Assembly (NCBI RefSeq): GCF_014174255.1
Contig: NZ_JABEQJ010000003.1
Coordinates: forward strand, 124,001-188,000
From: Gluconacetobacter sacchari
GTDB lineage: Bacteria > Pseudomonadota > Alphaproteobacteria > Acetobacterales > Acetobacteraceae
Direction of reading: 5' to 3'
DNA length: 64,000 nucleotides
Below, piece by piece: positions 20,876-59,740 of this stretch. Both the position numbers and the translations under genes were made by a program. How positions within the stretch are numbered: position 1 is the first letter of the stretch; the number at the start of each line of letters is the position of its first letter. The notes under the pieces were generated by a model that was not told the origin of the DNA, did no database searches, and saw nothing but the letters and a program-made list of their open reading frames with translations.

Positions 20876-23203
20876 ATGGATGCGATGACGAACGGGCGAG
20901 CGTGGAGGCTGGGACCTTCTGGTGGAGCAAGACGGATACTGTATCGCTCCAGTGTCGTGCTGTGGAGCGTGGGTGCGGCGCTGCCCGCCGCGCCCGCCCC
21001 GGCGGCCGAGGCGGACGGCGCGGCGGAACCGAAATCCGCGCGGCACCATCCGTCCGACCATCGTCATGACCGTGACGGCGGAAAGACCCGCCATCAGGAG
21101 CGGAAGGACTCGCCTGAAGGCGATATGCCCGGGAGCGTGGAAAGCCTGGTCGTCTGGGGAGAGGGGAGGCGGAACGCGACGACCGACGGCACCGGCAGCT
21201 ATGTCGTCAAGGCCGTTTCCATGGGTAAAATGCTCATGCGCCCGAATGAGATCCCGCAATCCGTTTCCGTGCTCGGCAGGCAGCAGATGCGTGACCAGAA
21301 CCTCAACACGGTGGATGATGCGCTCAAGCAGGTGCCGGGTGTGAATGTCAATTTCTATGGCGACGGCACGGCCGGCATGACGGCGCGCGGGTATGCGCTG
21401 ACGCCCCAGTTCGACGGGGTGCCGTCGACCGGCGGGCTACAGATGGCCCAGCAGTTCGATCTCGCCATTTATGACCGGCTTGAAGTGCTGCGTGGACCCA
21501 ACGGCACTTTCCAGGGCTCCGCCCCGCCTGGGGGGAGCGTCAATTTCGTCCGGAAACGCCCCCTGGATCACTTCAGGGCGCAGGGGTCGTTCAGCGGCGG
21601 CTCGTGGGATCATTTTCATGCGGATGCCGACGTTACCGGGCCGCTGACGGCGTCGAGGCGTGTGACAGGGAGGCTCGTCCTTGCGGGAACGGACCGCGAT
21701 TTCTTCTATCGCGACGCCTATGACCGACGTTGGACAGCCTATGCCGATATCGATATCCACCTGACCGACCATACGACGCTTTCGATGAGCGCGACGGGGC
21801 AGAAGAACGATACCACACGCTTCATGGGCTTGCCCCGGGCCGCCGATGGAAGCGACCTGCATCCGGGCCGGGACAGTTTCGTCGGCGCGGACTGGGGGCA
21901 TACGGCGTCTCCCATGTATGAGCTGGGCGGCGAACTTGAGCATCGGTTCGGCGGGGGGTGGCGTGCGCGCCTGACCGGCCGGCATCGTGTAACGGACACG
22001 CGCATGCACTACACCTATGTCAACAGTGCGGTCACGACGCGCAAAACGGCCAATTTCGTCGTCGCCCATTCCCTGATTCAGGACCGGTACGACGGAGCGG
22101 ACCTGTATTTCACCGGCCCCATCCATGCGTTTCATCGCAGGCATGATCTGGTGATCGGGGGAAATTATGATTCGGACGTGATGACGGACGGGGGCGCGAC
22201 GCAGAACTCCCGTGTGAACAGGGGGCTGGCGGGACTGGATATCTTTTCGCCGGGTATTTCGAGCGCCATCGAGCCCGATATCACCACGATGTATCGGGAG
22301 CCGACGCGGCAGAAAGGCGTGTATGGGTCGCTGCGGATCGAACTGCTGACGTCCCTGCATCTGCTCATGGGAGGGCGGATCAGTTTTTACGAATATAAAT
22401 ACAGGAATGTTTCCACAAATGCGCCGTATGTCGTCAGTCTGAAAAACAATGCGGTGCCGACCCCCTACCTGGCCCTGGTGTGGAATATCGTGCCCGATAT
22501 CGCGGCTTATGTGAGTTTTACGGATAGCTTTACACCGCAATCCGGCTACACGCCGGCCGGCCGCCTGAAGCCGGACCTGGGGCAGCAGGTGGAAGGAGGG
22601 CTGAAGGGAGACTTCTTCGATCACGCTCTGAACGTCACGCTGGCCGGCTATCGGGTCGTCGAACGGAACAAGGCCATGGTCGACGGCGACCTGGGACCCG
22701 TTTGTGGACGGACCGGAACGAGCGACTGTTATCGCGCGGCCGGCAAGGTGCGAAGCCAGGGCGCGGAGGTGGAAGCGATCGGGCGTATCCTGCCCGGCTG
22801 GGACATCAATGCCAGCTATACGTTCAATGACAATGTCATTCTGAAGGACAGCAACGCGGCGCTGGAGGGACGGGCCTATGCACCCAATTCACCCCGGCAT
22901 CTGTTCAAACTCTGGAGCCGCTACCGGTTTGCCGCGCCGGAGCAGACCAGGAATGTGTGGAGTGTGGGAGGCGGCCTGACGGCGCAGGGCAGCACGTTCG
23001 GCACGACGCGGACGGTCAGGCAGGGAGCCTATGTCGTGGCCAATGCGCAGGTCGGGTACCAGTTCGACCCCGCGCTGAACGTTTCGTTCAATATGAACAA
23101 CATTTCAAATACACGCTATTATCAGCGTCTCGGGAATATTTACTATTACAATTATTATGGGGAGCCTCGGAACGTCATGGCGACAGTGCAGGGCGTGTTC
23201 TGA
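20876..23203 (+). CDS. TonB-dependent siderophore receptor
   Basis: Outer-membrane ferric-siderophore importer; 775 residues. The start MDAMTNGRAW lies downstream of the Fur box (a second ATG is three codons later). Signal peptide near residues 18-45, then a His/Asp-rich linker, plug with IPQSVSVLGRQQM, LEVLRGPNG and PGGSVNFVRKRP (hallmarks of the siderophore subfamily), and a barrel ending YGEPRNVMATVQGVF. Iron control is inferred from the Fur box. The ligand is unknown. Confidence 0.92.
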   Translation: MDAMTNGRAWRLGPSGGARRILYRSSVVLWSVGAALPAAPAPAAEADGAAEPKSARHHPSDHRHDRDGGKTRHQERKDSPEGDMPGSVESLVVWGEGRRNATTDGTGSYVVKAVSMGKMLMRPNEIPQSVSVLGRQQMRDQNLNTVDDALKQVPGVNVNFYGDGTAGMTARGYALTPQFDGVPSTGGLQMAQQFDLAIYDRLEVLRGPNGTFQGSAPPGGSVNFVRKRPLDHFRAQGSFSGGSWDHFHADADVTGPLTASRRVTGRLVLAGTDRDFFYRDAYDRRWTAYADIDIHLTDHTTLSMSATGQKNDTTRFMGLPRAADGSDLHPGRDSFVGADWGHTASPMYELGGELEHRFGGGWRARLTGRHRVTDTRMHYTYVNSAVTTRKTANFVVAHSLIQDRYDGADLYFTGPIHAFHRRHDLVIGGNYDSDVMTDGGATQNSRVNRGLAGLDIFSPGISSAIEPDITTMYREPTRQKGVYGSLRIELLTSLHLLMGGRISFYEYKYRNVSTNAPYVVSLKNNAVPTPYLALVWNIVPDIAAYVSFTDSFTPQSGYTPAGRLKPDLGQQVEGGLKGDFFDHALNVTLAGYRVVERNKAMVDGDLGPVCGRTGTSDCYRAAGKVRSQGAEVEAIGRILPGWDINASYTFNDNVILKDSNAALEGRAYAPNSPRHLFKLWSRYRFAAPEQTRNVWSVGGGLTAQGSTFGTTRTVRQGAYVVANAQVGYQFDPALNVSFNMNNISNTRYYQRLGNIYYYNYYGEPRNVMATVQGVF

Positions 23204-23464: not shown

Positions 23465-25972
23465 TCAGAAGTGGGCGCTGACCGTTCCGTAGAACGACCG
23501 GGGGGCGCCGACCTGGAGGGTGTTGTAATCCCCAGACAGGGGATTGCCGCCGCTGCCCATGTTGGTGATATATCGCTCGTCGGTGACGTTGTTGATCGAG
23601 AAATCGACTTTCAGGGTCTTCGCCACGCCGGCATTGCGGAATTCGTAGCTGACGCCGAGATTCTCCAGCCAGTAGGAGGGGACGCGGGTGTCGTTGACGT
23701 AGCTGAGATACCGCTTGCCCATGTAGAGCGTGTCGAAGTGGAGGTTGAAGCCGGAGACGAGATAGTTGATGGAGTTCTTGTACATCAGCTTGGCGTAGTT
23801 GGGTTCCTGCTTGCCCTTGAGATGGTAGAAGACGCCGCCCGATGTCAGGTTGTTCTCGAATTTCGAGCTGTTGTAGCTGATGCTGTTATAGATCGACAGG
23901 TGACGGACCGGCGTGAGGGTGACGCTGGCATCGACGCCGTTCATGGCGACCGAACCGACATTTTCGAACAGGGAGCGTGCCTCGGCCAGCGGGCCCACGG
24001 AAATCGATTGCTGCCGGTTGGAGAAATCGACATGGTAGAGGTTGATCAGTCCCTTGACCATCGGCGTATTCAGCCGGTAGCCGATTTCATAGACCCAGTC
24101 GGTTTCCGGAGCGAGCGTCTTTTGCAGGGTCCTGAAATCCTGGGTGGTTGCCGCGCCCCAGGGGGAGGCCGTGCCGAAGCCGCTTTGCGGATAGGCCTGC
24201 ATGTTCTTGGAAATATCGAAATAAAATTCGTTATGCGGGGCGAAGCGCCAGTTTCCGCTGAACTGCGGCAGGGCGGCGGCGGTGGCATCGAGCGAGCCGC
24301 TGGGCGGGTTGGTCGTGCCCGTATAGGCGGGATCGTTGTACAGAACCCGGTTGCCCGCATCGACCACCATGGTGCGGAAGCCGGCATGCAGGGTCAGGTG
24401 CGGCAGGACCCTGTAGGTATCCTGCAGGTGGAAGACATAGGTGTTCGTGTTGAAGCCATAGGCCCAGTGCGTCAGGAACGGCGTGCCGCGATGCGCGACT
24501 TCGTCATAGGGGGTCGCGTCGGCGCTGTTGGGCTCGTTATAATATTCCATCGCCGGATTGTAGACCATGTTCTCGTACCAGAACCCGCCGTTGAACGTGT
24601 GGTTCCGGAAATGATAGGTCAGGTCGGTCTGAAATCCGAGGCGGCGGGTGCTCATCGCCTGGTCCTGCGCTGAAAGCGGGGCGCCGCTCGGCGAGGCGAC
24701 ATAGGGGCTGGTCCACCAGGCATCGTAGCGTTTGCCGACCCCGTAGAAGGTGGTCTTGGATTCCAGATCGTCCGTCAACTGGCTGTCCAGGCTCATGCCG
24801 CCGACATAATAGCTGCTGGTCTCGATGCCACGGTAATAGGCTGCGTCCTTCGGGTCGGACAGGCCCTGGTACTGGGGCAGATAAATGCCGTTGGCGGCAT
24901 TCAGGGCCGCGCCGTAATTCGGATAATAGTAATCGATCCCGTAACCGACCGTGCGGATCTCTTCCAGGCTGTTGTCGATATAGGATGCCGCGGCCTCCTG
25001 CGACCAGTCGAAATAGGTCTTGAATGTCGTGCGCTCGCCGATCGGCTGGACGATCTTCGCATTCACCATCTGCTGGAACTGCGAATCGCCGCCCAGCCAT
25101 TTCTTTTCGTCCTTGCGGTCGTACGAGACGTAGAATTTCGTCCCGCTCGGGTTCAGTGTCCCGCTGTCGAAGCGCGCGAACGTCCGGAAGGCGCTGTAGC
25201 TGCCGAAGGTCTGCGAGACGGTGCCGCCCATCCTGTCCGCCGGGTCGTTGCCGTAGAAGCGCACGGTGCCGCCCAGGTTGCTGGTGGACGGCGTGTCGAG
25301 GCTGCCCGCGCCCTGCGAGACGTCGGTGCGGCCGATATTCTCGTTGCTGATCGCGCGGCTGACCGGGACGCCGTTATAGGATTCGTAGCCCTGGCCGCCG
25401 AGGGGAATGCCGTCGACCGTGAAACCCAACTGGTCGCTGGTAAAGCCGTGCATGTAGAAACTTTGCGACCACAGATCGATTCCCAGCGGGTCCGACGTGC
25501 TGAACTGGATGCCCGGCAGATTTCCCACCGCCTTGAGCGGCGTCATGCCGGGGACCATGAACTGGAGGTCGCGGCTGGACACGGATTGCATCTGGCGGGT
25601 CGAACCGCTGCCGACCACGCTGACGGCCTCGGGGGCGGCCCCTGGGGCGGCCCCGGGGGACTGCATTGCCCTGCGGGGACGCACGCCGGAATTCGCCGCG
25701 CCGGATCTGGCGGGCGGGACCCTGTGCGGATGCGCGCTGGTCGCCGGGGTGACGCCGGCGGCGGACTGCGCCCGGGCGCCATGGGCATGCGCCACGGCGA
25801 AGAGGGAGATGCCGAGCATGAGGGCGCGGCGCGCGATCGTTCGGACCGGGCTTTTGGCCACCGGGCTTCTGGCCAGCGTCGAAAAAAGGCGCGGCGTCGT
25901 CGTCCCGGCGGTTGCTCCGGGAACAGGCGGGGGGGTGGCTGTGCTGTCATGGCGGCAAGTCTTCGCGCTCAT
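23465..25972 (-). CDS. TonB-dependent outer-membrane receptor next to the nic cluster
   Basis: 835 residues. ATG at 25972 preceded by GAGGAGA, 5 bases away. An unusually long N-terminus with a hydrophobic signal at about 53-68 (ALMLGISLFAVAHAHG) is followed by a Pro/Ala linker, TonB box region (EAVSVVG), plug with LKAVGNLPGIQFSTSDPLG, MHGFTSDQLGFTVDGIPLGG and SNLGGTVRFYG, and barrel ending APRSFYGTVSAHF. No Fur box was found in its promoter. It is divergent from the tetR-nic operon and shares that 490-base promoter region, so it may import a pyridine compound or a metal complex of one (inference). Confidence 0.9.
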   Translation of the reverse strand: MSAKTCRHDSTATPPPVPGATAGTTTPRLFSTLARSPVAKSPVRTIARRALMLGISLFAVAHAHGARAQSAAGVTPATSAHPHRVPPARSGAANSGVRPRRAMQSPGAAPGAAPEAVSVVGSGSTRQMQSVSSRDLQFMVPGMTPLKAVGNLPGIQFSTSDPLGIDLWSQSFYMHGFTSDQLGFTVDGIPLGGQGYESYNGVPVSRAISNENIGRTDVSQGAGSLDTPSTSNLGGTVRFYGNDPADRMGGTVSQTFGSYSAFRTFARFDSGTLNPSGTKFYVSYDRKDEKKWLGGDSQFQQMVNAKIVQPIGERTTFKTYFDWSQEAAASYIDNSLEEIRTVGYGIDYYYPNYGAALNAANGIYLPQYQGLSDPKDAAYYRGIETSSYYVGGMSLDSQLTDDLESKTTFYGVGKRYDAWWTSPYVASPSGAPLSAQDQAMSTRRLGFQTDLTYHFRNHTFNGGFWYENMVYNPAMEYYNEPNSADATPYDEVAHRGTPFLTHWAYGFNTNTYVFHLQDTYRVLPHLTLHAGFRTMVVDAGNRVLYNDPAYTGTTNPPSGSLDATAAALPQFSGNWRFAPHNEFYFDISKNMQAYPQSGFGTASPWGAATTQDFRTLQKTLAPETDWVYEIGYRLNTPMVKGLINLYHVDFSNRQQSISVGPLAEARSLFENVGSVAMNGVDASVTLTPVRHLSIYNSISYNSSKFENNLTSGGVFYHLKGKQEPNYAKLMYKNSINYLVSGFNLHFDTLYMGKRYLSYVNDTRVPSYWLENLGVSYEFRNAGVAKTLKVDFSINNVTDERYITNMGSGGNPLSGDYNTLQVGAPRSFYGTVSAHF

Positions 25973-26463
25973 GAAAATCTCCTCTCTCCGGGAATTCACC
26001 ACGCATTCCGTCTAAGTCTCTTCGGTTCGACGTTGCGAAGAGAGATCATTCGATAGTCGTAACGTCATGCCGCATTTAATTAATCGTTTGCCGAGTTTGT
26101 CAAGGGATGCTTTCATGGAAAAAACGATCCGTGCGCGGATGGCGTGGCGGCGGCGACGCTATTGAGAAAAGCCGTTTATATGGAATCATGTTGCGCGGTA
26201 TGGCGTGCGCGCGAGTTATCCTTCGGGCATTCGTGATGGGAGGGACGGGTTTGGCGGGCAGAAAGGGGGCGCCGGGCATGGCGGACGGGATCGGGGGGGC
26301 TGGCGGGTCGCCGCGGCGGATGCTGGAGAATTCGAACGATAATGACGCCGGTGGAAACGCGGGCGGTTCTGTCGGGGCCCGTCTCGACACGGGGGAAATT
26401 AAACGATACCATAATATCTGTTTCCAGCCTGGCGGCGATCCCTGTGGGAGTGAGATCTTGAGT
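25973..26463. other. divergent promoter region between TonB receptor and tetR-nic operon
   Basis: About 490 bases with no supported gene. AT-rich islands lie near 26070-26095 (containing TTAATTAA) and 26395-26425. ATCGTTT occurs on the plus strand near 26083 (TTAATCGTTTGCC) and on the minus strand near 26405 (GGTATCGTTTAAT), which makes both candidate TetR half-sites. An open frame through this interval has no ribosome site. Confidence 0.45.
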
Positions 26464-27195
26464 ATGAACCGAGCAGCCCGCAGCCCCGGCCGTCCGCTCG
26501 ACAACCAGTCACTCCCGGATGAAATCATGAGCGCCGCGGAATCGCTTTTCGCGCGGTCGGGGTATTTCGGGACCTCGGTGCGGGAAATCGCCAACAAGGC
26601 CTCGGTCAATTCCGCGCTCATCAGCTATTATTTCGGTGGCAAGGAAAATCTGTTCAGGACCATCTTCCGCAAGCAGGGGATGGAAATCGTCGGCAAGCGG
26701 ATGGAACTGCTCGACGCGCTGCGCGCGCGCTTCAAGGGGCCGATCCCGGTCGACCAGATCGTTCGCGCGTATCTCAGCCCGCAATGCGAGTTGAAGAAAA
26801 GCGGACCGCGCGGACTCGCCTTCATTCGGATACAGGCGCAGGTTCATAACGAATTCAACGAAATGTATTTCTCGCTGCGGCGGGAGATCTATGACGAATC
26901 GACCAAGCAATATATCGGCGAACTCGAACGTTCCCTGCCTGGAATATCGCTGAGCGACATCACCTGGCGCATGATGTTCCTGATCGGTGCCTATCTTTAC
27001 ATGCTCGCCGACCTCGATCGGATGTCGGACCTTTCCGATCATCGGTTCGAGCAGGGGGATGATACGGATGAACTTCTGGAACGGCTGACGATCTTCGTAT
27101 CGAGCGGCATGAGCGCGCCCACGGTCCAGTGGCCGCCCGTGCTTTCCACAACGGTGACGCCGGCGCGGCGCCGGCGCGCCGTGCGGACGAAATGA
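26464..27195 (+). CDS. TetR/AcrR family regulator heading the nic operon
   Basis: 243 residues. N-terminal TetR helix-turn-helix: EIMSAAESLFARSGYFGTSVREIANKASVNSALISYYFGGKENLF, with the recognition helix near residues 45-60. The C-terminal ligand domain resembles TetR_C_33/CerR-like domains. The ATG at 26464 is used, but TTG at 26458 is 7 bases after GGAG and could be the true start. It ends 7 bases before the permease, so it is the first gene of the nic operon and probably an autoregulated, ligand-responsive repressor. In Pseudomonas putida the nic genes use NicR (MarR) and NicS (TetR); this is not clearly either. Confidence 0.88.
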   Translation: MNRAARSPGRPLDNQSLPDEIMSAAESLFARSGYFGTSVREIANKASVNSALISYYFGGKENLFRTIFRKQGMEIVGKRMELLDALRARFKGPIPVDQIVRAYLSPQCELKKSGPRGLAFIRIQAQVHNEFNEMYFSLRREIYDESTKQYIGELERSLPGISLSDITWRMMFLIGAYLYMLADLDRMSDLSDHRFEQGDDTDELLERLTIFVSSGMSAPTVQWPPVLSTTVTPARRRRAVRTK

Positions 27196-27202
27196 GCGCG
27201 CC

Positions 27203-28543
27203 ATGGACGATATGGCCGGACGGGGCGAAGGGCGGGCGGGGATGACGGCCGGGGGCTGGTTTCCGGCGTGGCGGCGTACGGCGAATGCGTACAGCGTCGC
27301 GCCCGACGAATATCCGGGCTGGTGGCAGAGCATGGCCCTGGGTGGGCAGCATCTGCTGGCGATGACGGGGTCGAACGTGCTGGGGCCGCTGCTGATGGGG
27401 TTCGACCCCAATGTCGCGATCCTGTGCTCGGGCCTGGGCACGTTGCTGTTCTTTCTCGTCACCGGCGGGCGGGTGCCGAGCTATCTTGGATCCAGCTTCT
27501 CGTTCATCGCGCTCACGGTCGCGATCACGGGCTATGTCGGGCATGGTCCGAACCCCGATATCGGGCTGGCGTGCGGCGGCGTTTTCGCGGCCGGGGTCGT
27601 GTACGCGCTGATCGGTGCGATCGTGATGGCCGTCGGCCATGGATGGATCGAGCGGTTGATGCCGCCTTCCGTCACCGGAGCGATCGGGGCGGCGATCGGG
27701 CTCAATCTGGCGCCCGTCGCCACGCATGGCCTTGGGCAGGGCGATGCCGGCACCGCCTGCGGCCTGTTCGCGCTGCTGTGCATGGTCGGCTTCGCCGTCT
27801 ATGGCGGCGCCCTGGCGCGGCGCCTGTCGATCCTGCTGGCACTCGTGACATCGAGCCTGGTCTATGTCGTCGTCGCCAACGGATTGGGGCTGGCGCCGCC
27901 GGTCGATTTCGCGGGGATCGCCCGCACGCCGCCGTTCGGCGTGCCGCATTTCGCGGCGCCGCGCTTTTCCTCGCAGGCCATGATGATCTTCGCGCCGGTC
28001 GCGATCGTGCTCGTCGCCGAGAATCTGGGCCATCTCAAGGCGATCGGCGCGATGACGGGCACGTCGCTCTCGCCCCTTACGGGGCGGGCCTTTCTTGGCG
28101 ACGGGTTGGCGACGATGCTCGCGTCCCTCCTGGGTGGCACCGGGGTGACGACATATGTCGAGAATATCGGTGTCATGGCGATTTCGCGCGTCTATTCGAC
28201 GCTGGTCTTCGCCATTGCCGGGCTGTTCGCGATCCTGCTCGGGTTTTCCCCGCTGTTCGGAGCCCTGTTGCATGCCGTTCCCGAAGCCGTGCTGAGCGGG
28301 CTGGCGCTGGGTCTGTTCGGACTGATCGCCGCCACGATGGTGCGGATCTGGATCGATCACCGCGTCGATTTCTCCCAGCCCTCCACCCTGTTTCCCGTCG
28401 GGGTCGCGCTGGTCGCCGGGGCGGGCAACTTCACGCTGCATCTGGGCGGCATCACGCTGGGCGGGATCGTCACGGCAAGCCTCGCCGCCATCATCCTCCA
28501 TCAGATCCTGCACCCGCGTGCCGGCAAGGACGTGACCTCATGA
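27203..28543 (+). CDS. NCS2 family nucleobase-type permease
   Basis: Inner-membrane symporter of the uracil/xanthine (NCS2) family, about 446 residues with some 12-14 hydrophobic segments. Family signatures: WWQSMALGGQHLLAMTGSNVLGPLLMGF near 33-60, LGSSFSFIA, and GGTGVTTYVENIGVMAISRVYST near 312-334. The closest familiar relative is the pyrimidine permease RutG. It is translationally coupled to nicX (ATGA overlap), so I infer import of a hydroxypyridine or related N-heterocycle. A second start at 27242, preceded by a G-rich stretch, is possible. Confidence 0.9.
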   Translation: MDDMAGRGEGRAGMTAGGWFPAWRRTANAYSVAPDEYPGWWQSMALGGQHLLAMTGSNVLGPLLMGFDPNVAILCSGLGTLLFFLVTGGRVPSYLGSSFSFIALTVAITGYVGHGPNPDIGLACGGVFAAGVVYALIGAIVMAVGHGWIERLMPPSVTGAIGAAIGLNLAPVATHGLGQGDAGTACGLFALLCMVGFAVYGGALARRLSILLALVTSSLVYVVVANGLGLAPPVDFAGIARTPPFGVPHFAAPRFSSQAMMIFAPVAIVLVAENLGHLKAIGAMTGTSLSPLTGRAFLGDGLATMLASLLGGTGVTTYVENIGVMAISRVYSTLVFAIAGLFAILLGFSPLFGALLHAVPEAVLSGLALGLFGLIAATMVRIWIDHRVDFSQPSTLFPVGVALVAGAGNFTLHLGGITLGGIVTASLAAIILHQILHPRAGKDVTS

Positions 28544-29574
28544 GCGTAAGCGATTTCGAACTCTTTCAATCATGGCGGAAGGTTCTGGACCTGTGCGCGC
28601 TGCGGCCGGGGCAGGCGGTGACGGTGCTGACTTCGGCGGACACGAACGAGCAGACGCTGCGCTGCGCCATTCTCGCGGTGCGCGACAAGGGGGCGATCGC
28701 CAATCGGCTCGACCTGCAACCGGTCAATGGCGGCACGTCGCTGTCGCGCGATCCGCTGGCCTATGTGGGCACGACGCCGCTGACGGGAAACCGGCCGGCG
28801 TTGGAAATGCTCAAGGCCAGCGACCTGGTGCTGGACCTGATGACGCTTTTGTTCTCGGCGGAGCAGCATGAGATCCTGGCGGCGGGCGGCCGCATCCTGC
28901 TGGCGGTCGAACCGCCCGAGGTCCTCGTGCGCCTGACGCCGACGCTGGAGGACCGCGCGCGCGTGCTGGCGGCGTCGGCCACGCTGCGGGCCGCGCGCGG
29001 CATGCGCGTGACCTCGGCCGCCGGGACGGATGCGACTTTCGCGCTCGGGGATTATCCGATGCTGGAGGAATACGGTTTCGTGGATCGGCCCGGGCGGTGG
29101 GACCATTGGCCCAGCGGCTTCCTGGCCACCTGGTCCAACGAAGGGTCGGCCGAGGGCACGATCGTGCTGGCGCCGGGCGATATCCTGCTGCCGCAGAAGG
29201 CCTATGTGACCGCGCCGGTCACGCTGCGTCTGGAACGCGGCTATGTCCGCGCGATCGAGGGCGGGTACGAGGCCGGGCATCTGAAGGATTATATGGACAG
29301 TTTCGGCGATCCGGAGGTGTATGCGGTCTCGCATATCGGGTGGGGGTTGCAGAAGAAGGCGCATTGGTCGGTCATGGGTTTCTATGATCGCGAGGCGAGC
29401 ATCGGGATGGATTCGCGCGCCTGCGCCGGCAATTTCCTGTGGTCCACGGGGCCGAACAACGAGGCGGGGGGCACCCGTGATACCGCCTGCCATATCGATA
29501 TCCCCATGCGCGGCTGCACGGTGACGCTGGACGGCGAGGCGGTGGTGGTCGATGGCGTGCTGGTGGAGGATTGA
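28540..29574 (+). CDS. nicX: 2,5-dihydroxypyridine 5,6-dioxygenase
   Basis: Fe(II)-dependent ring opening of 2,5-dihydroxypyridine to N-formylmaleamate in the cytoplasm; 344 residues, as NicX of Pseudomonas putida. Recognised by long stretches shared with NicX: ILLAVEPPEVL near 122-132, EYGFVDRPGRWDHWPSGF near 175-193, YVRAIEGGYEAGHLKDYMD, SHIGWGLQKKAHWSVMG, and NFLWSTGPNNEAGGTR. The His and Glu residues in the WDHWPSG, SHIGWG and EYG segments are candidate iron ligands. ATG overlaps the permease stop. Confidence 0.95.
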   Translation: MSVSDFELFQSWRKVLDLCALRPGQAVTVLTSADTNEQTLRCAILAVRDKGAIANRLDLQPVNGGTSLSRDPLAYVGTTPLTGNRPALEMLKASDLVLDLMTLLFSAEQHEILAAGGRILLAVEPPEVLVRLTPTLEDRARVLAASATLRAARGMRVTSAAGTDATFALGDYPMLEEYGFVDRPGRWDHWPSGFLATWSNEGSAEGTIVLAPGDILLPQKAYVTAPVTLRLERGYVRAIEGGYEAGHLKDYMDSFGDPEVYAVSHIGWGLQKKAHWSVMGFYDREASIGMDSRACAGNFLWSTGPNNEAGGTRDTACHIDIPMRGCTVTLDGEAVVVDGVLVED

Positions 29575-29577
29575 GCC

Positions 29578-30213
29578 GTGAGCAACGACCTGCAACGTGA
29601 CGAAGCGCGCTACAAGGCGCAGGGTTTCGGCAACGAAATGGGGATTGCCGGCCGGGTCGGCCTGCTGATCGTCGATTTCGTCAACGGGTTCGCCGATCCG
29701 GCCGCGTTCGGCGGCGGCAATATTCCGCAGGCGATCGCGCGCACGACGACGCTGCTGGCCGCCGCGCGGCGGCTGGGCTGGAAGATCGCCCATACGCGGA
29801 TCGTCTTCGCCGATGACGGGGCGGATGCGAATATCTTCTCGCTGAAGGTGCCGACGATGCTGGGCCTGACCGAGGGCAATCCGGCCTCGGCGATCGTGCC
29901 GGAACTGGCGCCCGCGCCGGGAGAATATGTGGTGCGCAAGACCGTGCCGTCGGCTTTTTCCGGCACGCCGCTGGCGGCCTGGTATGTCGCGCACGGGGTG
30001 CAGACCGTGGTCGTCGCCGGGTGCGTGACCTCGGGCTGCGTGCGCGCGAGCGTGCTGGACGCCATGCAGGCCGGCTTTCGCCCCATCGTGGTGTCCGACT
30101 GCGTGGGCGATCGCGCGATCGGGCCGCATGAGGCCAACCTGTTCGACATGGCGCAGAAATGCGGCGACGTGCTGGAACTCGACACGCTGCTTTCGCGCAT
30201 CCCCAATCAGTGA
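29578..30213 (+). CDS. nicF: maleamate amidohydrolase
   Basis: Isochorismatase-fold enzyme that deamidates maleamate to maleate and ammonia; 211 residues. The catalytic triad is visible as Asp33 (IVDFVNGF), Lys121 (VVRKTVPSAF) and Cys154 (AGCVTSGCVRAS). Starts with GTG 3 bases after the nicX stop (GGAGGATTGAGCC upstream). In the pathway it acts third, after NicD. Confidence 0.93.
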   Translation: MSNDLQRDEARYKAQGFGNEMGIAGRVGLLIVDFVNGFADPAAFGGGNIPQAIARTTTLLAAARRLGWKIAHTRIVFADDGADANIFSLKVPTMLGLTEGNPASAIVPELAPAPGEYVVRKTVPSAFSGTPLAAWYVAHGVQTVVVAGCVTSGCVRASVLDAMQAGFRPIVVSDCVGDRAIGPHEANLFDMAQKCGDVLELDTLLSRIPNQ

Positions 30214-30230
30214 CGTTCGGAGTTTATGGC

Positions 30231-30986
30231 GTGAACAAGAGCTTTTACCGGATCGGGCAGATCGTCCCGAGTTCCAACGTGACCATGGAAACCGAAATTC
30301 CCGCCCTGCTGGCGGCCCGGCAACTGATCCGGCCCGAGCGGTTTCTGTTCCATTCGAGCCGCATGCGGATGAAGACGGTCAGCAAGGACGAATTGTCGGC
30401 GATGGACGCGCAGTCCGACCGCTGCGCGCTGGAACTCAGCGACGCGCGCGTCGATGTGCTGGGCTATGCCTGTCTGGTGGCGACCATGTCGATGGGCGTG
30501 GGGTATCACCGCGTGTCGGAGGCGCGGCTGCATGGCCGCACGGTGGAAAACGGTGCCCCGGCGCCGGTGGTGACCAGTGCCGGGGCGCTGGTCGACGGGC
30601 TGGCGACGCTGGGCGCGCGCCGGATCGTGGTCGTCGCCCCGTACATGAAGCCGCTGACGCGGCTGGTGATCGACTATCTGGCCAGCGAGGGGTACGAGGT
30701 GATCGATCATGTGGCGCTGGAAATTCCGGACAATCTGGACGTGGCGGCGCATGATCCGCGGCGCCTGCCGGGGATCGTCGCCGGCCTGACCTACAAGAAT
30801 GCCGATGCGATCGTGCTGTCGGCGTGCGTGCAGATGCCGTCGCTGCCCGTGGTGGCGACGGTCGAGGCCATGACCGGCAAGCCGGTGCTGTCGGCGGCGA
30901 TCGCCACCACCCATGCCATGCTGCGCGCGCTGGGGCTGGAACGCATCGCACCCGGGGGCGGGGCGCTGCTGTCGGGGGCGTACTGA
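30231..30986 (+). CDS. nicE: maleate cis-trans isomerase
   Basis: Isomerises maleate to fumarate, which enters the TCA cycle; 251 residues of the Asp/Glu racemase-like fold. Both catalytic cysteines are visible: Cys81 in GYACLVATMSMG and Cys199 in LSACVQMPSLP. Other matches to NicE are IGQIVPSSNVTMETEIPA at the N-terminus and the C-terminal GGGALLSGAY. GTG start at 30231 with GGAG 9 bases upstream; an extended reading into nicF is not needed. Confidence 0.95.
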   Translation: MNKSFYRIGQIVPSSNVTMETEIPALLAARQLIRPERFLFHSSRMRMKTVSKDELSAMDAQSDRCALELSDARVDVLGYACLVATMSMGVGYHRVSEARLHGRTVENGAPAPVVTSAGALVDGLATLGARRIVVVAPYMKPLTRLVIDYLASEGYEVIDHVALEIPDNLDVAAHDPRRLPGIVAGLTYKNADAIVLSACVQMPSLPVVATVEAMTGKPVLSAAIATTHAMLRALGLERIAPGGGALLSGAY

Positions 30987-31066
30987 GTTTTTTCGGGTTT
31001 CTGTCCTTTCGCTTTGGAAAAGGCGGAGCCTTGTCATTTTCGTCGATGGAATAAGGAAAGCCTGTG

Positions 31067-31873
31067 ATGACCGGCAGTCGCTTCCTCTATGGCGCGCAGG
31101 TGCGTGCCAACGGAATCCGCCAGCATTACCTGCGTTATGGCGGGCAGGGGGCGCCGCTGGTGCTGGTGCCGGGTATTACCAGCCCCGCCGTTACCTGGGG
31201 ATTCGTCGCGGAACGGCTGGCGGCGACGCATGACGTGCATGTGCTGGATGTGCGCGGGCGCGGCCTGTCGGAGACCGGGCCGGACCTTGGATACGACCTG
31301 GACAGCTATGCCGACGATGTGCGCGGGCTGATCGACGCGCTGGGCCTGGATGGCTGCGTGGTGCTGGGCCATTCGATGGGCGCGCGGATCGCCATTCGGC
31401 TGGCGCGGCGCGGGGCGGCGGCCATCGCGTCGCTGGTGCTGGTCGATCCCCCGGTCAGCGGGCCGGGGCGGCGGGCGTATCCGGCGAAGCTCGACTGGTA
31501 TGTCGACTCGATCCGTGCCGCGCGCCGGGGCATGGATGCCGATGCGATGCGTCGGTTCTGCCCCACCTGGACCGAGGAGCAACTGCGTCTGCGCGCCGAA
31601 TGGCTGCATACCTGTGACGAACTGGCGACGCGCGTGACGTTCGAGAAATTCCACACCGAGGACATCCACCAGGACCTGCCGCATCTGACGCCGCCGGTGC
31701 TGCTGATGATCGCGACCCGCGGCGGCGTGATCCTGCCCGAGGACGAGGCGGAGATCCGGACCTTGCTGCCGACGGTCCGTCTGGCCCATGTGCCCGATGC
31801 GGGGCATATGATCCCGTGGGACAATTTGGACGGGTTCTGCACGGCGGTGGAGGGGTTTCTGGCCGCGCCGTGA
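31067..31873 (+). CDS. nicD: N-formylmaleamate deformylase
   Basis: Alpha/beta hydrolase that splits N-formylmaleamate to maleamate and formate; 268 residues. Triad: Ser103 in GHSMGAR, Asp127 in LVLVDPPVSGPGRR, His247 in AGHMIPWD. ANGIRQHYLRYGGQG and LVPGITSPAVTWGFVAERL match NicD closely. The ATG at 31067 is used with AAGGAAAG upstream; GTG one codon earlier is possible. An 80-base gap separates it from nicE, the only sizeable gap in the operon. Confidence 0.94.
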   Translation: MTGSRFLYGAQVRANGIRQHYLRYGGQGAPLVLVPGITSPAVTWGFVAERLAATHDVHVLDVRGRGLSETGPDLGYDLDSYADDVRGLIDALGLDGCVVLGHSMGARIAIRLARRGAAAIASLVLVDPPVSGPGRRAYPAKLDWYVDSIRAARRGMDADAMRRFCPTWTEEQLRLRAEWLHTCDELATRVTFEKFHTEDIHQDLPHLTPPVLLMIATRGGVILPEDEAEIRTLLPTVRLAHVPDAGHMIPWDNLDGFCTAVEGFLAAP

Positions 31874-31958: not shown

Positions 31959-32651
31959 TTAGGAGTCCGGCGTCGCGATCAGGGAGGTCCAGATGACGGC
32001 GCCGAGCAGGGCGCCGACGAGCGGGGCGGTCCAGAACAGCCAGAGCTGGCTGAGGGCGGCCGTCTGCGCGAAGAAGGCGACCGCCGTGGAGCGGGCGGGA
32101 TTGACCGACGTGTTCGTGACCGGAAGCGCGACCAGATGGATCAGGGTCAGCGCCAGCCCGATGGCCAGCGGGCCGAAGCCCGGGGGGGCGGTGCGGGAGG
32201 TGGCGCCCAGGATGACCACCAGGAAGCCCGCCGTCAGGGTCGTTTCGATCAGCGCGGCGGAGAGAAGCCCGTAATGGCCCGGGGACAGGGCGCCGTAGCC
32301 GTTGGAGGCGAAGCCGCCCGCCACGAAGTCCGGCCTGCCGGAGGCGATGAGGTGCAGCAGGCTGGCCGCCAGCAATCCGCCCAGCACCTGGGCGGCCCAG
32401 TAGGGCACCAGCGCGTTCCAGGGCAGCCGGCCGGCGGCGGCGGCGCCCAGTGAGACCGCCGGGTTGAAATGGCCGCCGGAGATGCCGCCCACCGCGTAGG
32501 CCATGGTGAGGACGGTCAGGCCGAAGGCGAGGGCCACGCCCGCGAAGCCGATCCCCAACTGGGGAAAGGCCGCGTCGAGGACGGCGGCGCCGCAGCCGCC
32601 GAAGACGAGCCAGAATGTGCCGAAGAATTCGGCGCCGAGTTTTTTTATCAT
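31959..32651 (-). CDS. aqpZ: aquaporin Z
   Basis: Water channel of the inner membrane; 230 residues, six TM helices and two half-helices. Both NPA boxes are intact: HFNPAVS (63-65) and SVNPARST (184-186) with the selectivity-filter Arg187; His172 is in the place of the AqpZ filter His. This favours a water channel over a glycerol facilitator. Convergent with the nic operon, apparently unrelated. Confidence 0.94.
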
Positions 32652-38043: not shown

Positions 38044-38301
38044 TCAGGCGTACAGGTTCAGGACCGTCGAGCCGTCGGCCGAGGCGTTCTGGCCGCCGGT
38101 GGTGGTTTCGGAGATGACGTCGCCCTGCGAATCCTTGGTGATCGTGGTGATCGAGCCGTCGCTGTTGGTGATCTGGCTTGTGGTCGTGGTGGATGACGAT
38201 GACGAGGACGAGGATGAGGACGATGAGGAGGACGTGTCGGCGGTGCCGCCGTACAGGCTGCCCGGCATGGTGCTGCCGAGGCTGGTGATGGAGGATGACA
38301 T
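38044..38301 (-). CDS. small serine-homopolymer protein
   Basis: 85 residues starting MSSSITSLGSTMPGSLYGG, with GGGAGAA upstream. The middle is a run of 14 serines followed by four threonines, then ITNSDGSITTITKDSQGDVISETTTGG and LNLYA. No signal peptide or membrane segment. The second half resembles short secreted or surface low-complexity proteins with NSDGS-type repeats; function unknown. The Ser run is coded by mixed codons, not by a simple DNA repeat throughout. Confidence 0.65.
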   Translation of the reverse strand: MSSSITSLGSTMPGSLYGGTADTSSSSSSSSSSSSSSTTTTSQITNSDGSITTITKDSQGDVISETTTGGQNASADGSTVLNLYA

Positions 38302-48284: not shown

Positions 48285-49313
48285 TTAGACGCAGCCGAGG
48301 CGGCGCATAGCTTCTTGCGCCATCCGGACCTGATCGGCTGCGCGCGTGTATCGCTCCACTTCTGCAAGCGTCTTGTGCCCCGTAATCGCCGCGATCTGAT
48401 GCGGAGTGCAGCCAGCCTCTGCAAGGCGCCGAGCTGCTGCCTTCCGCAACCCATGCGGGCTAAGGCCCGCCGGCAGGCCTGCTTCCTTCGCCCACTCCAC
48501 GAACCGATTGTAGAACCCATTCGGGCTGTACGGCCTTGGGTCGTCCTCGCGTGTGAGGAGAAACCGCGGAGCAGATCGGTCGCATTGTTCGATCTCGGCG
48601 ATGAGCGCCCCATGCAGGGGGATCAGAAGCGCGGCGCCTGTCTTGGCCTGGCGGACGCGGAGGAATCCGCTCTCGATGTCGTCCCAACCCATCCGCACCA
48701 CATCGCTACGCCTCTGCCCCGTGTAGAGCAGAAGGGCCAGTGCCAGCCTCTGTGGTGAGCCCGATAGCCACCGGGCCTCGTATTTCTCGATCTCGTCTTC
48801 TGACCAGCTTTTCGCGCCCTCTCCCTTTTCCTTGAGGCGCCGGACTCCAAGCGTCGGATCGGTCTTGATCCACCCATCCTCGACCGCGAAGCGGAACAAC
48901 AGGCGAAACAGCCGGAGCCGATGGTTCGCGGCAGCCGGCGTATCGGCAGCGCGCGCCACGAAGCGTCGAATGTATTGCGGCTCGAAATCCGTCACAGCAT
49001 GCGCGCCATAGTCCTCTTTCTGCATTCGGGAGAGGATGCGCCGGTAATTTGTCTGCGTGGCCGGACCAAGCTGGCGAAAGGCCGATGATTCATACCAGGC
49101 ATCGACTAGGGCGCAGAACGTGCCGACCCCAGCCTTGGGCTTCTCCTTCGGCTCTTCGGTCGAGGCCAGCGCGGCCTGGTAGGTGGTGAAGAACGACGGG
49201 TCGGACGGGTCTGGCAGAGGGATCTGCTTGAACCCCCTCCGCCTCAGATAATGTCGAACCTTTCCGTGCCGGTCTTTGTATTTCTTGATGAATTGCAGGC
49301 GAATAATTGTCAC
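48285..49313 (-). CDS. tyrosine integrase of the prophage
   Basis: 342 residues. N-terminal Arm/SAM-like domain (about 60-150) and catalytic domain with Arg in YTGQRRSDVVRMGW, Lys in RQAKTGAALL, HGLR (LSPHGLRKAAARRL), the second His in TGHKTLAEVERYTRA with the nucleophile Tyr. The GTG start at 49313 overlaps the excisionase stop (GTGA); longer readings cover that gene instead. Last gene of the leftward operon. Confidence 0.93.
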   Translation of the reverse strand: MTIIRLQFIKKYKDRHGKVRHYLRRRGFKQIPLPDPSDPSFFTTYQAALASTEEPKEKPKAGVGTFCALVDAWYESSAFRQLGPATQTNYRRILSRMQKEDYGAHAVTDFEPQYIRRFVARAADTPAAANHRLRLFRLLFRFAVEDGWIKTDPTLGVRRLKEKGEGAKSWSEDEIEKYEARWLSGSPQRLALALLLYTGQRRSDVVRMGWDDIESGFLRVRQAKTGAALLIPLHGALIAEIEQCDRSAPRFLLTREDDPRPYSPNGFYNRFVEWAKEAGLPAGLSPHGLRKAAARRLAEAGCTPHQIAAITGHKTLAEVERYTRAADQVRMAQEAMRRLGCV

Positions 49314-58458: not shown

Positions 58459-58736
58459 CGGAGAAAAGTCCGGAGAACTCCGGAGCCCTGTTTCTGAACA
58501 CCGGGCGCCGGGGCGTAAACGCGCCTGATTACGTCGGCACAATCACTGTGGATGGGAAGCGGCTGGAAGTTGCCGCGTGGGTCAGGGATGGCCGGGAGGG
58601 CGAGTTTCTGAGCTTGCATGTGCAGGCGCCCGCAAGCGGAAGGGCTGCGCCGGGCAAGAAGCCGCCCTATCGGCGCCGGGCCACGCCCGAGCAGGTCGCC
58701 CGGGCGGAAGCGCAGCGCGCGAGGATGATGCGATGA
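58455..58736 (+). CDS. small phage protein, DUF736-like
   Basis: 93 residues. GALFLNTGRRGVNAPDYVGTI and AAWVRDGREGEFLSLHVQ follow a pattern common in small phage proteins next to replication genes, possibly OB-like. Basic tail PPYRRRATPEQVARAEA. Function unknown. Confidence 0.65.
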   Translation: MTEKSPENSGALFLNTGRRGVNAPDYVGTITVDGKRLEVAAWVRDGREGEFLSLHVQAPASGRAAPGKKPPYRRRATPEQVARAEAQRARMMR

Positions 58737-59740
58737 GCCGGCGCCATTCACCGGGCGGCCGGGTGCCGGATGGTCTGCTGGAGGAAATCCGGGCCCGGAA
58801 TCCGCTGGCGGCGCTGATCGGCCGGACAGTGCAGTTGCGCCGGTCCGGGCGGTGTTTCCAGGGGCTGTGCCCGTTCCATGCCGAGCGGAACCCGTCCTTT
58901 GCGGTTTATGAGAGCGGGTATCACTGCTTCGGCTGCGGGGCGCATGGGGATGCGTTCTCGTGGCTGCAGCATTGCTGCGGGTGTTCGTTCCAGGAGGCGG
59001 TGAACACGCTGGCGCAGGAGGGCGGGATGGAACCGCCCTTCGGCAGCGTGGGAAGAGCCAGCCTGCCGACCGGGTTGCCGGTGCCCGAGGTCAGCCTGTC
59101 GCATGAGGCCAACGATGAAGTCGTCCGGCGGAACCAGCAATTCGCCCTTTCGATCTGGGGCGAGGGGCAGGACCCGGTCGGGACGCCGGTCGAGATCTAT
59201 CTGGGCACCCGGCGCCTGTCGCTGACCGAGGACACAGGATACCTGCGCTTTCATCCGGCCTGCCCGCGCGGGCGGAATGAGCGCCTGCCGACCATGATCG
59301 CCCTGATGATCGACCCGGTGACGTTCGAGCCCTGCGGGCTGCATCGGACGTTCCTTCGGCCGGACGGGAGCGGGAAGGCGGACGGACAGGACAAGATGAT
59401 GCTCGGCCGGGCTGGAATCATCTGCCTGGAGCGCCAGGCCGAGATTGCCGGCGCCCTGGGCATTGCCGAGGGAATTGAGACCGCGCTTTCGGTGCAGCAG
59501 CATCTGCGTAACGTCGCCATGTGGGCTTGTGCCACCGCTGGCGGCATCGAACGCCTGCCGCCGCATCCGGTGATCCAGAAGCTGTCGATCTATGCCGATC
59601 GGGACGAGAACGGGCATGGGCTGCGTGCCGCCCGTGCCTGTGCCGCGCGCTGGTCGAGGGCCGGCACCCATGTCGAGATCCTGACGCCGCGGTCGGAGAA
59701 GGACTGGAACGACGTCATCATGCGGAGGGCCATGCATTGA
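58733..59740 (+). CDS. CHC2 zinc-finger and Toprim primase-like protein
   Basis: 335 residues. Zinc ligands Cys46, His49, Cys65 and Cys68 (GLCPFHAERNPSFAVY, YHCFGCGAHGDAFSW) as in DnaG. C-terminal Toprim domain with GIAEGIETALSVQ and SIYADRDENGHG. No DnaB-interaction domain is seen. Makes primers or acts as helicase loader partner for phage replication with the next gene. Confidence 0.9.
   Translation: MSRRHSPGGRVPDGLLEEIRARNPLAALIGRTVQLRRSGRCFQGLCPFHAERNPSFAVYESGYHCFGCGAHGDAFSWLQHCCGCSFQEAVNTLAQEGGMEPPFGSVGRASLPTGLPVPEVSLSHEANDEVVRRNQQFALSIWGEGQDPVGTPVEIYLGTRRLSLTEDTGYLRFHPACPRGRNERLPTMIALMIDPVTFEPCGLHRTFLRPDGSGKADGQDKMMLGRAGIICLERQAEIAGALGIAEGIETALSVQQHLRNVAMWACATAGGIERLPPHPVIQKLSIYADRDENGHGLRAARACAARWSRAGTHVEILTPRSEKDWNDVIMRRAMH

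Follow-up and report, generated by a model that had tools for sequence, protein, structure and literature searches.

In the nic cluster of Pseudomonas putida KT2440, the transporter is NicT, a protein of the MFS type. The nic2 nicotine cluster of P. putida S16 runs through 2,5-dihydroxypyridine. It is governed by NicR2, a TetR regulator whose effector is 6-hydroxy-3-succinoyl-pyridine, as described in an excerpt of PMC6550519. Here we describe a locus within a stretch of 64,000 nucleotides from Gluconacetobacter sacchari (the window), in which tetR, an NCS2-family permease gene, nicX, nicF, nicE and nicD follow one another on the plus strand between positions 26464 and 31873. We propose, with a probability of about 0.74, that this operon provides the lower half of aerobic nicotinate catabolism and probably also uptake, the pathway being divided between this locus and a second one on another contig of the same genome (C28). 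Neither nicotinate catabolism in acetic acid bacteria nor an NCS2 nicotinate permease was found in a search of the open-licence literature.

In the proposed scheme, NicA and NicB from C28 would convert nicotinate to 6-hydroxynicotinate, and NicC from the same contig would convert that to 2,5-dihydroxypyridine. Window NicX would open the ring to give N-formylmaleamate, from which NicD, NicF and NicE, encoded at both loci, would release formate, ammonia and fumarate. Because the C28 copy of nicX has lost its first 112 codons along with the NCS2 gene, window NicX would probably be the working dioxygenase and the window permease the inner-membrane importer. The TetR protein would most likely repress this locus until released by a compound of the pathway, and the two loci would presumably be expressed jointly.

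The window operon and its enzymes

All six genes are full length, and the spacing from gene to gene (7 bases, a 4-base overlap, 3, 17 and 80 bases) indicates tight packing. The start codon of tetR is a choice, its frame being open upstream to 26107. Enzyme identities were assigned by matching the proteins to sequences of known structure. NicX has as its best solved relative the 2,5-dihydroxypyridine 5,6-dioxygenase 7cn3 (374 bits, residues 1-342), and NicE the maleate cis-trans isomerase 4fq7 (356 bits). NicF and NicD are closest to 3ot4 (titled 'putative isochorismatase', 286 bits) and 4l0c (titled 'deformylase', 338 bits), which we take to be NicF and NicD, respectively. By eye, the alignments to these structures show that NicF keeps D33, K121 and C154, presumably its catalytic triad including the nucleophile, that NicE keeps C81 and C199, and that NicD keeps the motifs GHSMG (S103) and GHM (H247). 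Scans with NCBIfam and Pfam agree with the operon identities at superfamily level; for NicX no model of either collection matched at the limits used. The structure matches uphold the first-pass annotation of this DNA, which had read the four enzymes as the lower maleamate pathway. No known RNA element reached its gathering score between window positions 22000 and 36000.

Window NicX aligns without gaps to the crystallised enzyme, and residue numbering is therefore the same in both. We aligned 82 sequences, comprising the window protein, the truncated C28 copy and 80 relatives, the best 80 of at least 558 confirmed matches, a sample that leans to close relatives. The iron ligands H265, S302, H318 and D320 and the substrate contacts E177 and H189, together with R293 and E308, are present in window NicX and kept in 82 of 82 sequences; their roles are taken from an excerpt of PMC7910607. 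L104 is also kept. At position 105 the crystallised enzyme has His, but Phe is found in all full-length sequences (81/81), the window protein among them. According to the same excerpt (PMC7910607), H105F keeps activity in the crystallised enzyme and H105A loses it. Loss of a catalytic residue at position 105 was considered and rejected, Phe being the rule among the 81 full-length sequences aligned. The catalytic residues, whose loss the first-pass annotation had raised as a possible objection, are thus in place.

That annotation had also noted that the ring hydroxylase was absent. This holds for the window, where tblastn with the C28 NicA, NicB and NicC proteins gave no match (at least 30% identity, E 1e-6), and for the window only, not for the genome.

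A second nic cluster on contig C28

The genome is a draft assembly of 4.83 Mb in 114 contigs. A search of it with NicX led to two places, the window copy and C28:33571-34263, where residues 113-343 only are matched, at 88% identity. On C28 a MarR gene and nicC on the plus strand are divergent from a minus-strand run of nicA-nicB-nicX'-nicF-nicE-nicD. The C28 NicC protein matches the solved 6-hydroxynicotinate 3-monooxygenases 8uiq and 5eow at 438 and 436 bits (next chain, 170), and if its start is set 39 bases further upstream than called, the protein also takes in GAGMGG, presumably the motif expected of a flavin-binding fold. C28 carries the sole nicB and nicC found in the genome, with nicA beside them, NicA not having been searched on its own. 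No second ortholog of NicC or NicB was found in the genome, the next matches being at 22% and 28% identity and below 50 bits for NicC and at 28-31% identity for the molybdopterin part of NicB. Genes nicF, nicE and nicD are present at both loci; a full-length nicX and a match to the NCS2 permease, found once in the genome, are in the window only.

With the NicA, NicB and NicC genes on C28, the genome holds a complete gene set for the nicotinate pathway. The first-pass annotation had called the window operon self-contained, had postulated an unknown pyridine feeder and had proposed a search of the rest of the genome for upper-pathway genes. That search located nicC, nicA and nicB on a contig where nicX has lost its first 112 codons, so that the operon no longer appears self-contained and an unknown feeder is no longer needed. 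The annotation had further contemplated a full set of nicC and nicAB at another site sharing the regulator; the set exists, but C28 carries a MarR gene where the window carries tetR. Since C28 holds nicA, nicB and nicC, the window holds a full nicX and the permease gene, and several relatives have all of them in one operon, the feeder is most likely nicotinate. More generally, a pathway that looks incomplete at a single locus may be complete in the genome as a whole, and this strain offers a natural example of two clusters that seem to make up for each other's gaps.

Aligned to the corresponding locus of Ameyamaea chiangmaiensis (L003), C28 DNA matches at 86% in two pieces. Because 1575 bases of L003 fall in neither piece and 35 bases of C28 belong to both, we estimate the loss at about 1.6 kb; the gap opens within the first few NCS2 codons and reaches codon 113 of nicX. 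In genome G050, locus L178 is laid out like C28 but without the gap: MarR and nicC lie on one strand and nicA-nicB-NCS2-nicX-nicF-nicE-nicD on the other. The ends of the deletion share 12 bases, CTGGCGGCGGGC, in the intact L178, imperfectly matched in L003, and this short homology fits what a true deletion between short repeats would need. The protein of the truncated gene is probably inactive, as residues 104-105 and the larger part of the N-terminal domain (2-151 according to the excerpt of PMC7910607) are missing from it.

Could the junction be an assembly error, C28 really carrying NCS2 and a full nicX and the window operon being a redundant second copy? A draft of 114 contigs invites the question, and an assembler may be misled by two similar clusters in the same genome. 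However, the junction is internal to a contig of 64 kb whose first 55 kb, the part read, contain no N, and the 12 shared bases suit a true short-homology deletion. C28 and window DNA are, moreover, only about 84% identical at the deletion region, which makes a collapse onto each other unlikely. We therefore hold mis-assembly to be very improbable. Recent exchange between the clusters as the source of window nicX was likewise rejected, this gene being, at about 84% DNA identity, about as far from C28 as from L003.

Still less credit is due to the idea that both loci are decaying leftovers in a strain that no longer degrades nicotinate. The remaining nic genes are open and full length at both loci, and the window NicX keeps the residues tested, with Phe 105 as in its relatives. 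These features stand against the truncation on C28, the absence from the window of the nicC, nicA, nicB and MarR genes that loci L011-L013 carry at the corresponding place, and the lack of a nicX match in six of 13 other genomes of the genus, which speak for decay.

Relatives, permease, regulator and flanks

Among the nicX loci of Acetobacteraceae, 22 are of the window type and were mapped (L003-L016, L093-L096, L178 and L181-L183); L011-L013, L093/L096 and L014/L183 are near duplicates. More distant loci of the family (L064, L131-L135, L148-L153 and L180) were left out of the count. Genes nicC, nicA and nicB lie in the same stretch in 17 of the 22, three others being cut by an end (L003, L004, L096) and two having nicC only (L014, L183). 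A single operon nicC-A-B-NCS2-X-F-E-D is found in L011-L013 (L011 from Gluconacetobacter asukensis, L013 from Gluconacetobacter aggeris), L093 and L094, and L178 is the same with nicC divergent. The operon order of L011-L013 recurs in L005, L008 and L095, where, as in L004, no nicE match is present in the stretch. NCS2 is directly upstream of nicX in 11 loci, absent there in 10 and cut in one (L004). In L181, nicD and nicE are matched in part only (14% and 55% of the query) and may be broken. Among 299 sampled Acetobacteraceae genomes, NicX was found in 21 (E 1e-80) and NCS2 in 25 (E 1e-100). Within the genus, NicX occurs in 8 of 14 genomes including the window's own, the only one with two places. 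By coordinates, genomes G001 and G002 correspond to L013 and L011, which makes this the genus of G. aggeris and G. asukensis.

These maps also bear on whether the window operon is an independent module, unconnected with C28, in which 2,5-dihydroxypyridine or another hydroxypyridine would enter via NCS2 and be sensed by TetR. In relatives the same NCS2-X run continues with nicC-A-B, and the genome has nicC, nicA and nicB and no other full-length nicX. In addition, the flavin monooxygenase common in TetR loci lacking nicAB (31-35% identity to NicC) was not found here, the next NicC matches falling below 50 bits; picolinate, 3-hydroxypyridine and other hydroxylases were not searched by name. An independent module is accordingly improbable, although nicC, nicA and nicB are missing from the window, loci with TetR and the lower pathway but no nicA or nicB do occur (for example, L082 of Acidovorax sp. 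NO-1 and L191 of Paracoccus yeei), and the permease keeps both glutamates of UraA.

Several observations weigh against the proposed split. The C28 deletion is seen in a single assembly of 114 contigs, and in 13 other genomes of the genus no truncated nicX was found (seven full length, six none). Because 10 of the 22 relatives lack NCS2 beside nicX, the permease is not needed for the pathway in general. Lower pathways without adjacent upper genes exist, as seen in the Komagataeibacter-type loci L014 and L183 (nicC-X-F-E-D without nicA, nicB or NCS2 in the stretch), whose hosts may live on 6-hydroxynicotinate, and in L082 (TetR-E-D-X-F without nicC, nicA or nicB). Finally, the regulators differ, being TetR in the window and MarR on C28, and a search for an operator common to both loci found none.

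The first-pass annotation had taken the transporter to be of nucleobase type, and its best solved relative is indeed a uracil permease (8omz, 190 bits). The protein scores below the cut-off of the curated RutG model (518.6 against 758.65 bits) and of the NCBIfam NCS2 superfamily model (269.3 against 291.8), and above that of Pfam Xan_ur_permease (249.9 against 27). Uracil has a ring with a cis-amide like that of 2-pyridones, and is bound via two glutamates of UraA. These are, we assume, E241 and E290, with which E273 and E320 of the window protein align; both are invariant in the five nic-linked sequences aligned, the window's included. Such glutamates fit a cis-amide ligand, which could be uracil or a 2-pyridone (6-hydroxynicotinate, 2,5-dihydroxypyridine); nicotinate is without that group. 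The NCS2 proteins at 66% identity or more (window, G022, G050, G001, G002) abut nicX by coordinates in five of five cases. The other 20 (53-62%) are not beside nicX, 16 being in genomes without such a nicX and four (G016, G212, G274, G298) on another contig. The window permease is probably an inner-membrane importer of nicotinate or a hydroxypyridine. We know of no pyridines as an NCS2 substrate class. If the permease imports one, a new substrate class would be added to a well-studied family, and the nic-linked permease of several acetic acid bacteria would acquire a function.

The regulator is a TetR protein, as first annotated, with TetR_N and TetR_C_30 domains and NicR 5fgl as its best solved relative (132 bits). 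Its presence had been presented as a departure from the P. putida arrangement, a view that the neighbourhoods of its relatives do not favour. In the 299-genome sample, TetR matches occur at 48 places in 40 genomes (E 1e-25), and 30 places were fetched and inspected for neighbours. The six best, at 38% identity or more, adjoin nic genes: the window, four of genus g4, in which the tetR gene comes after nicA-nicB-nicC, and G015. The other 24 (35% or less) have no nic genes within about 1.5 kb, except for a weak 30% alpha/beta-hydrolase match in L112. TetR homologues in loci retrieved with NicX are linked by construction and were not counted as evidence. Of 77 plasmid records with a TetR match, three were opened (Sagittula, Paracoccus yeei, Pseudosulfitobacter); all three read TetR-nicE-nicD-nicX-nicF, with nicD named by position and annotation, and two also carry upper nic genes. 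A further precedent besides NicR2 is NicS, which we take to be a TetR-type regulator. NicS represses nicAB in P. putida, according to an excerpt of PMC10269826. Given these precedents and the nic genes adjoining its closest relatives in the family sample and on the three plasmids, a TetR regulator is nothing unusual beside nic genes, although the 22 nearest loci all lack a homologue at 30% identity or more (E 1e-6). The window protein is a candidate NicS/NicR2-type regulator by its TetR fold and nic-gene association; binding of an operator and a ligand is proposed.

On the plasmids L190-L192, NicX goes under the annotation leucyl aminopeptidase, and NicE under that of Asp/Glu racemase or maleate isomerase. 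At L082, by eye, transposase-like genes lie on both sides of the nic genes.

An AT-rich half-site, AATTAAAC, 67 bases upstream of window tetR, was considered as a shared TetR operator and rejected as evidence. It occurs within about 260 bases of only four of 29 nic-linked TetR rows, the window included (two rows, L135 and L147, are the same place), and a search of L084 for the palindrome core with three mismatches gave two matches against 3.79 expected.

The operon is a mosaic. In 200-base steps, most of window NCS2-nicX-nicF is nearer to Ameyamaea, G050 or C28 than to the Gluconacetobacter locus L011. From the start of nicE (about 30300) the nearest locus is L011, with identities of 88-95% in six of eight steps; the remaining two, which run across gene ends, are at 72% and 77%, and the first of these is nearer to L093. 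In a NicX+NicF tree, the window, C28, L003 and L178 form a group separate from all others (support 97), whereas a NicE+NicD tree groups it with L011-L013 (support 100). Downstream of nicD, an aquaporin-like gene is 91-92% identical to one similarly placed in L011-L013, where it is separated from nicD by a MarR gene. From the step identities, both trees and this flank, we conclude that nicE-nicD and the aquaporin-like flank are the native nic locus of the genus and that NCS2-nicX-nicF come from another lineage, with a breakpoint near the nicE start.

We put forward, tentatively and at somewhat less than even odds, a twofold claim: that the nic-linked NCS2 branch of acetic acid bacteria imports a pyridine (nicotinate, 6-hydroxynicotinate or 2,5-dihydroxypyridine), and that the catabolic pathway persists in this strain because two separately inherited operons, each without what the other keeps, have become interdependent under different regulators. 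The enzymes are known and their arrangement is new; any novelty may lie in an NCS2 pyridine importer and in the division of one pathway between two loci whose regulators differ.

Divergent from the operon is a TonB-dependent receptor gene. Its product is 78% identical to the receptor beside the Komagataeibacter L014 nic genes (78-79% for the L014 and L183 receptors), and such receptors are seen near many nic loci. The genome has 80 receptor-family matches in 4.83 Mb, and the closest paralogue is not on C28 (46% at C1, 44% at C28). An outer-membrane partnership of this receptor with the pathway is possible, the evidence being weak. Elsewhere, window positions 49300 (approximately) to 64000 hold many short genes and, by eye, a primase-like protein (58733-59740), and look like a prophage or other mobile element; 38044-38301 encodes a small protein with a long serine/threonine run.

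Table 1. Features of the window and of contig C28 (positions refer to the respective sequence)
Feature	Sequence	Positions	Strand	Remarks
TonB-dependent receptor	window	23465..25591	-	divergent from operon
AT-rich imperfect inverted repeat, weak operator candidate	window	26397..26422	+	42-67 bases upstream of tetR
TetR-family regulator, NicR2-like	window	26464..27195	+	TetR_N + TetR_C_30 domains
NCS2-family permease, Xan_ur_permease, RutG/UraA branch	window	27203..28543	+	sits between nicB and nicX in several relatives
nicX, 2,5-dihydroxypyridine 5,6-dioxygenase	window	28540..29574	+	solved-structure match and residues; sole full-length copy found in genome
nicF, maleamate amidohydrolase, isochorismatase-fold cysteine hydrolase	window	29578..30213	+	solved-structure match 3ot4
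nicE, maleate cis-trans isomerase	window	30231..30986	+	solved-structure match 4fq7; alternative start GTG at 30210
nicD, N-formylmaleamate deformylase, alpha/beta hydrolase	window	31067..31873	+	solved-structure match 4l0c
aquaporin-like gene (by eye)	window	31959..32651	-	91-92% identical, near same place in L011-L013
nicD	C28	31349-32140	-	
nicE	C28	32152-32907	-	
nicF	C28	32925-33563	-	
nicX' (L083), without first 112 codons	C28	33565-34299	-	NicX match
nicB	C28	34286-37894	-	molybdopterin domains and cytochrome c (first 964 of 1202 residues scanned)
nicA	C28	37891-38364	-	named by position and sequence likeness to relatives only
MarR gene	C28	38587-39030	+	
nicC	C28	called start 39205, ends 40287	+	

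Comparison with described nic systems

Set against the nic cluster of P. putida KT2440, the window shares NicX, NicF, NicE and NicD, with NicC, NicA and NicB encoded elsewhere in the genome. It differs in being one of two loci, in having an NCS2 permease instead of the MFS transporter NicT, and in the TetR gene next to the lower genes. Like the nic2 cluster of P. putida S16, it pairs a pyridine-degradation cluster with a TetR protein, there the repressor NicR2; the upper pathway in S16 is, however, one for nicotine, and NicR matches the window TetR at only about 132 bits. The plasmid loci of Roseobacteraceae and Paracoccus (L190-L192) also have a TetR homologue (47-48%) directly beside the four lower genes, but differ in gene order, in transporter type (symporter or ABC there) and in the presence of upper genes. 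The nic operon of acetic acid bacteria agrees with the window in gene content and order from NCS2 to nicD; unlike it, the window lacks nicC, nicA, nicB and MarR, has TetR, and combines NCS2-X-F and E-D of different ancestry.

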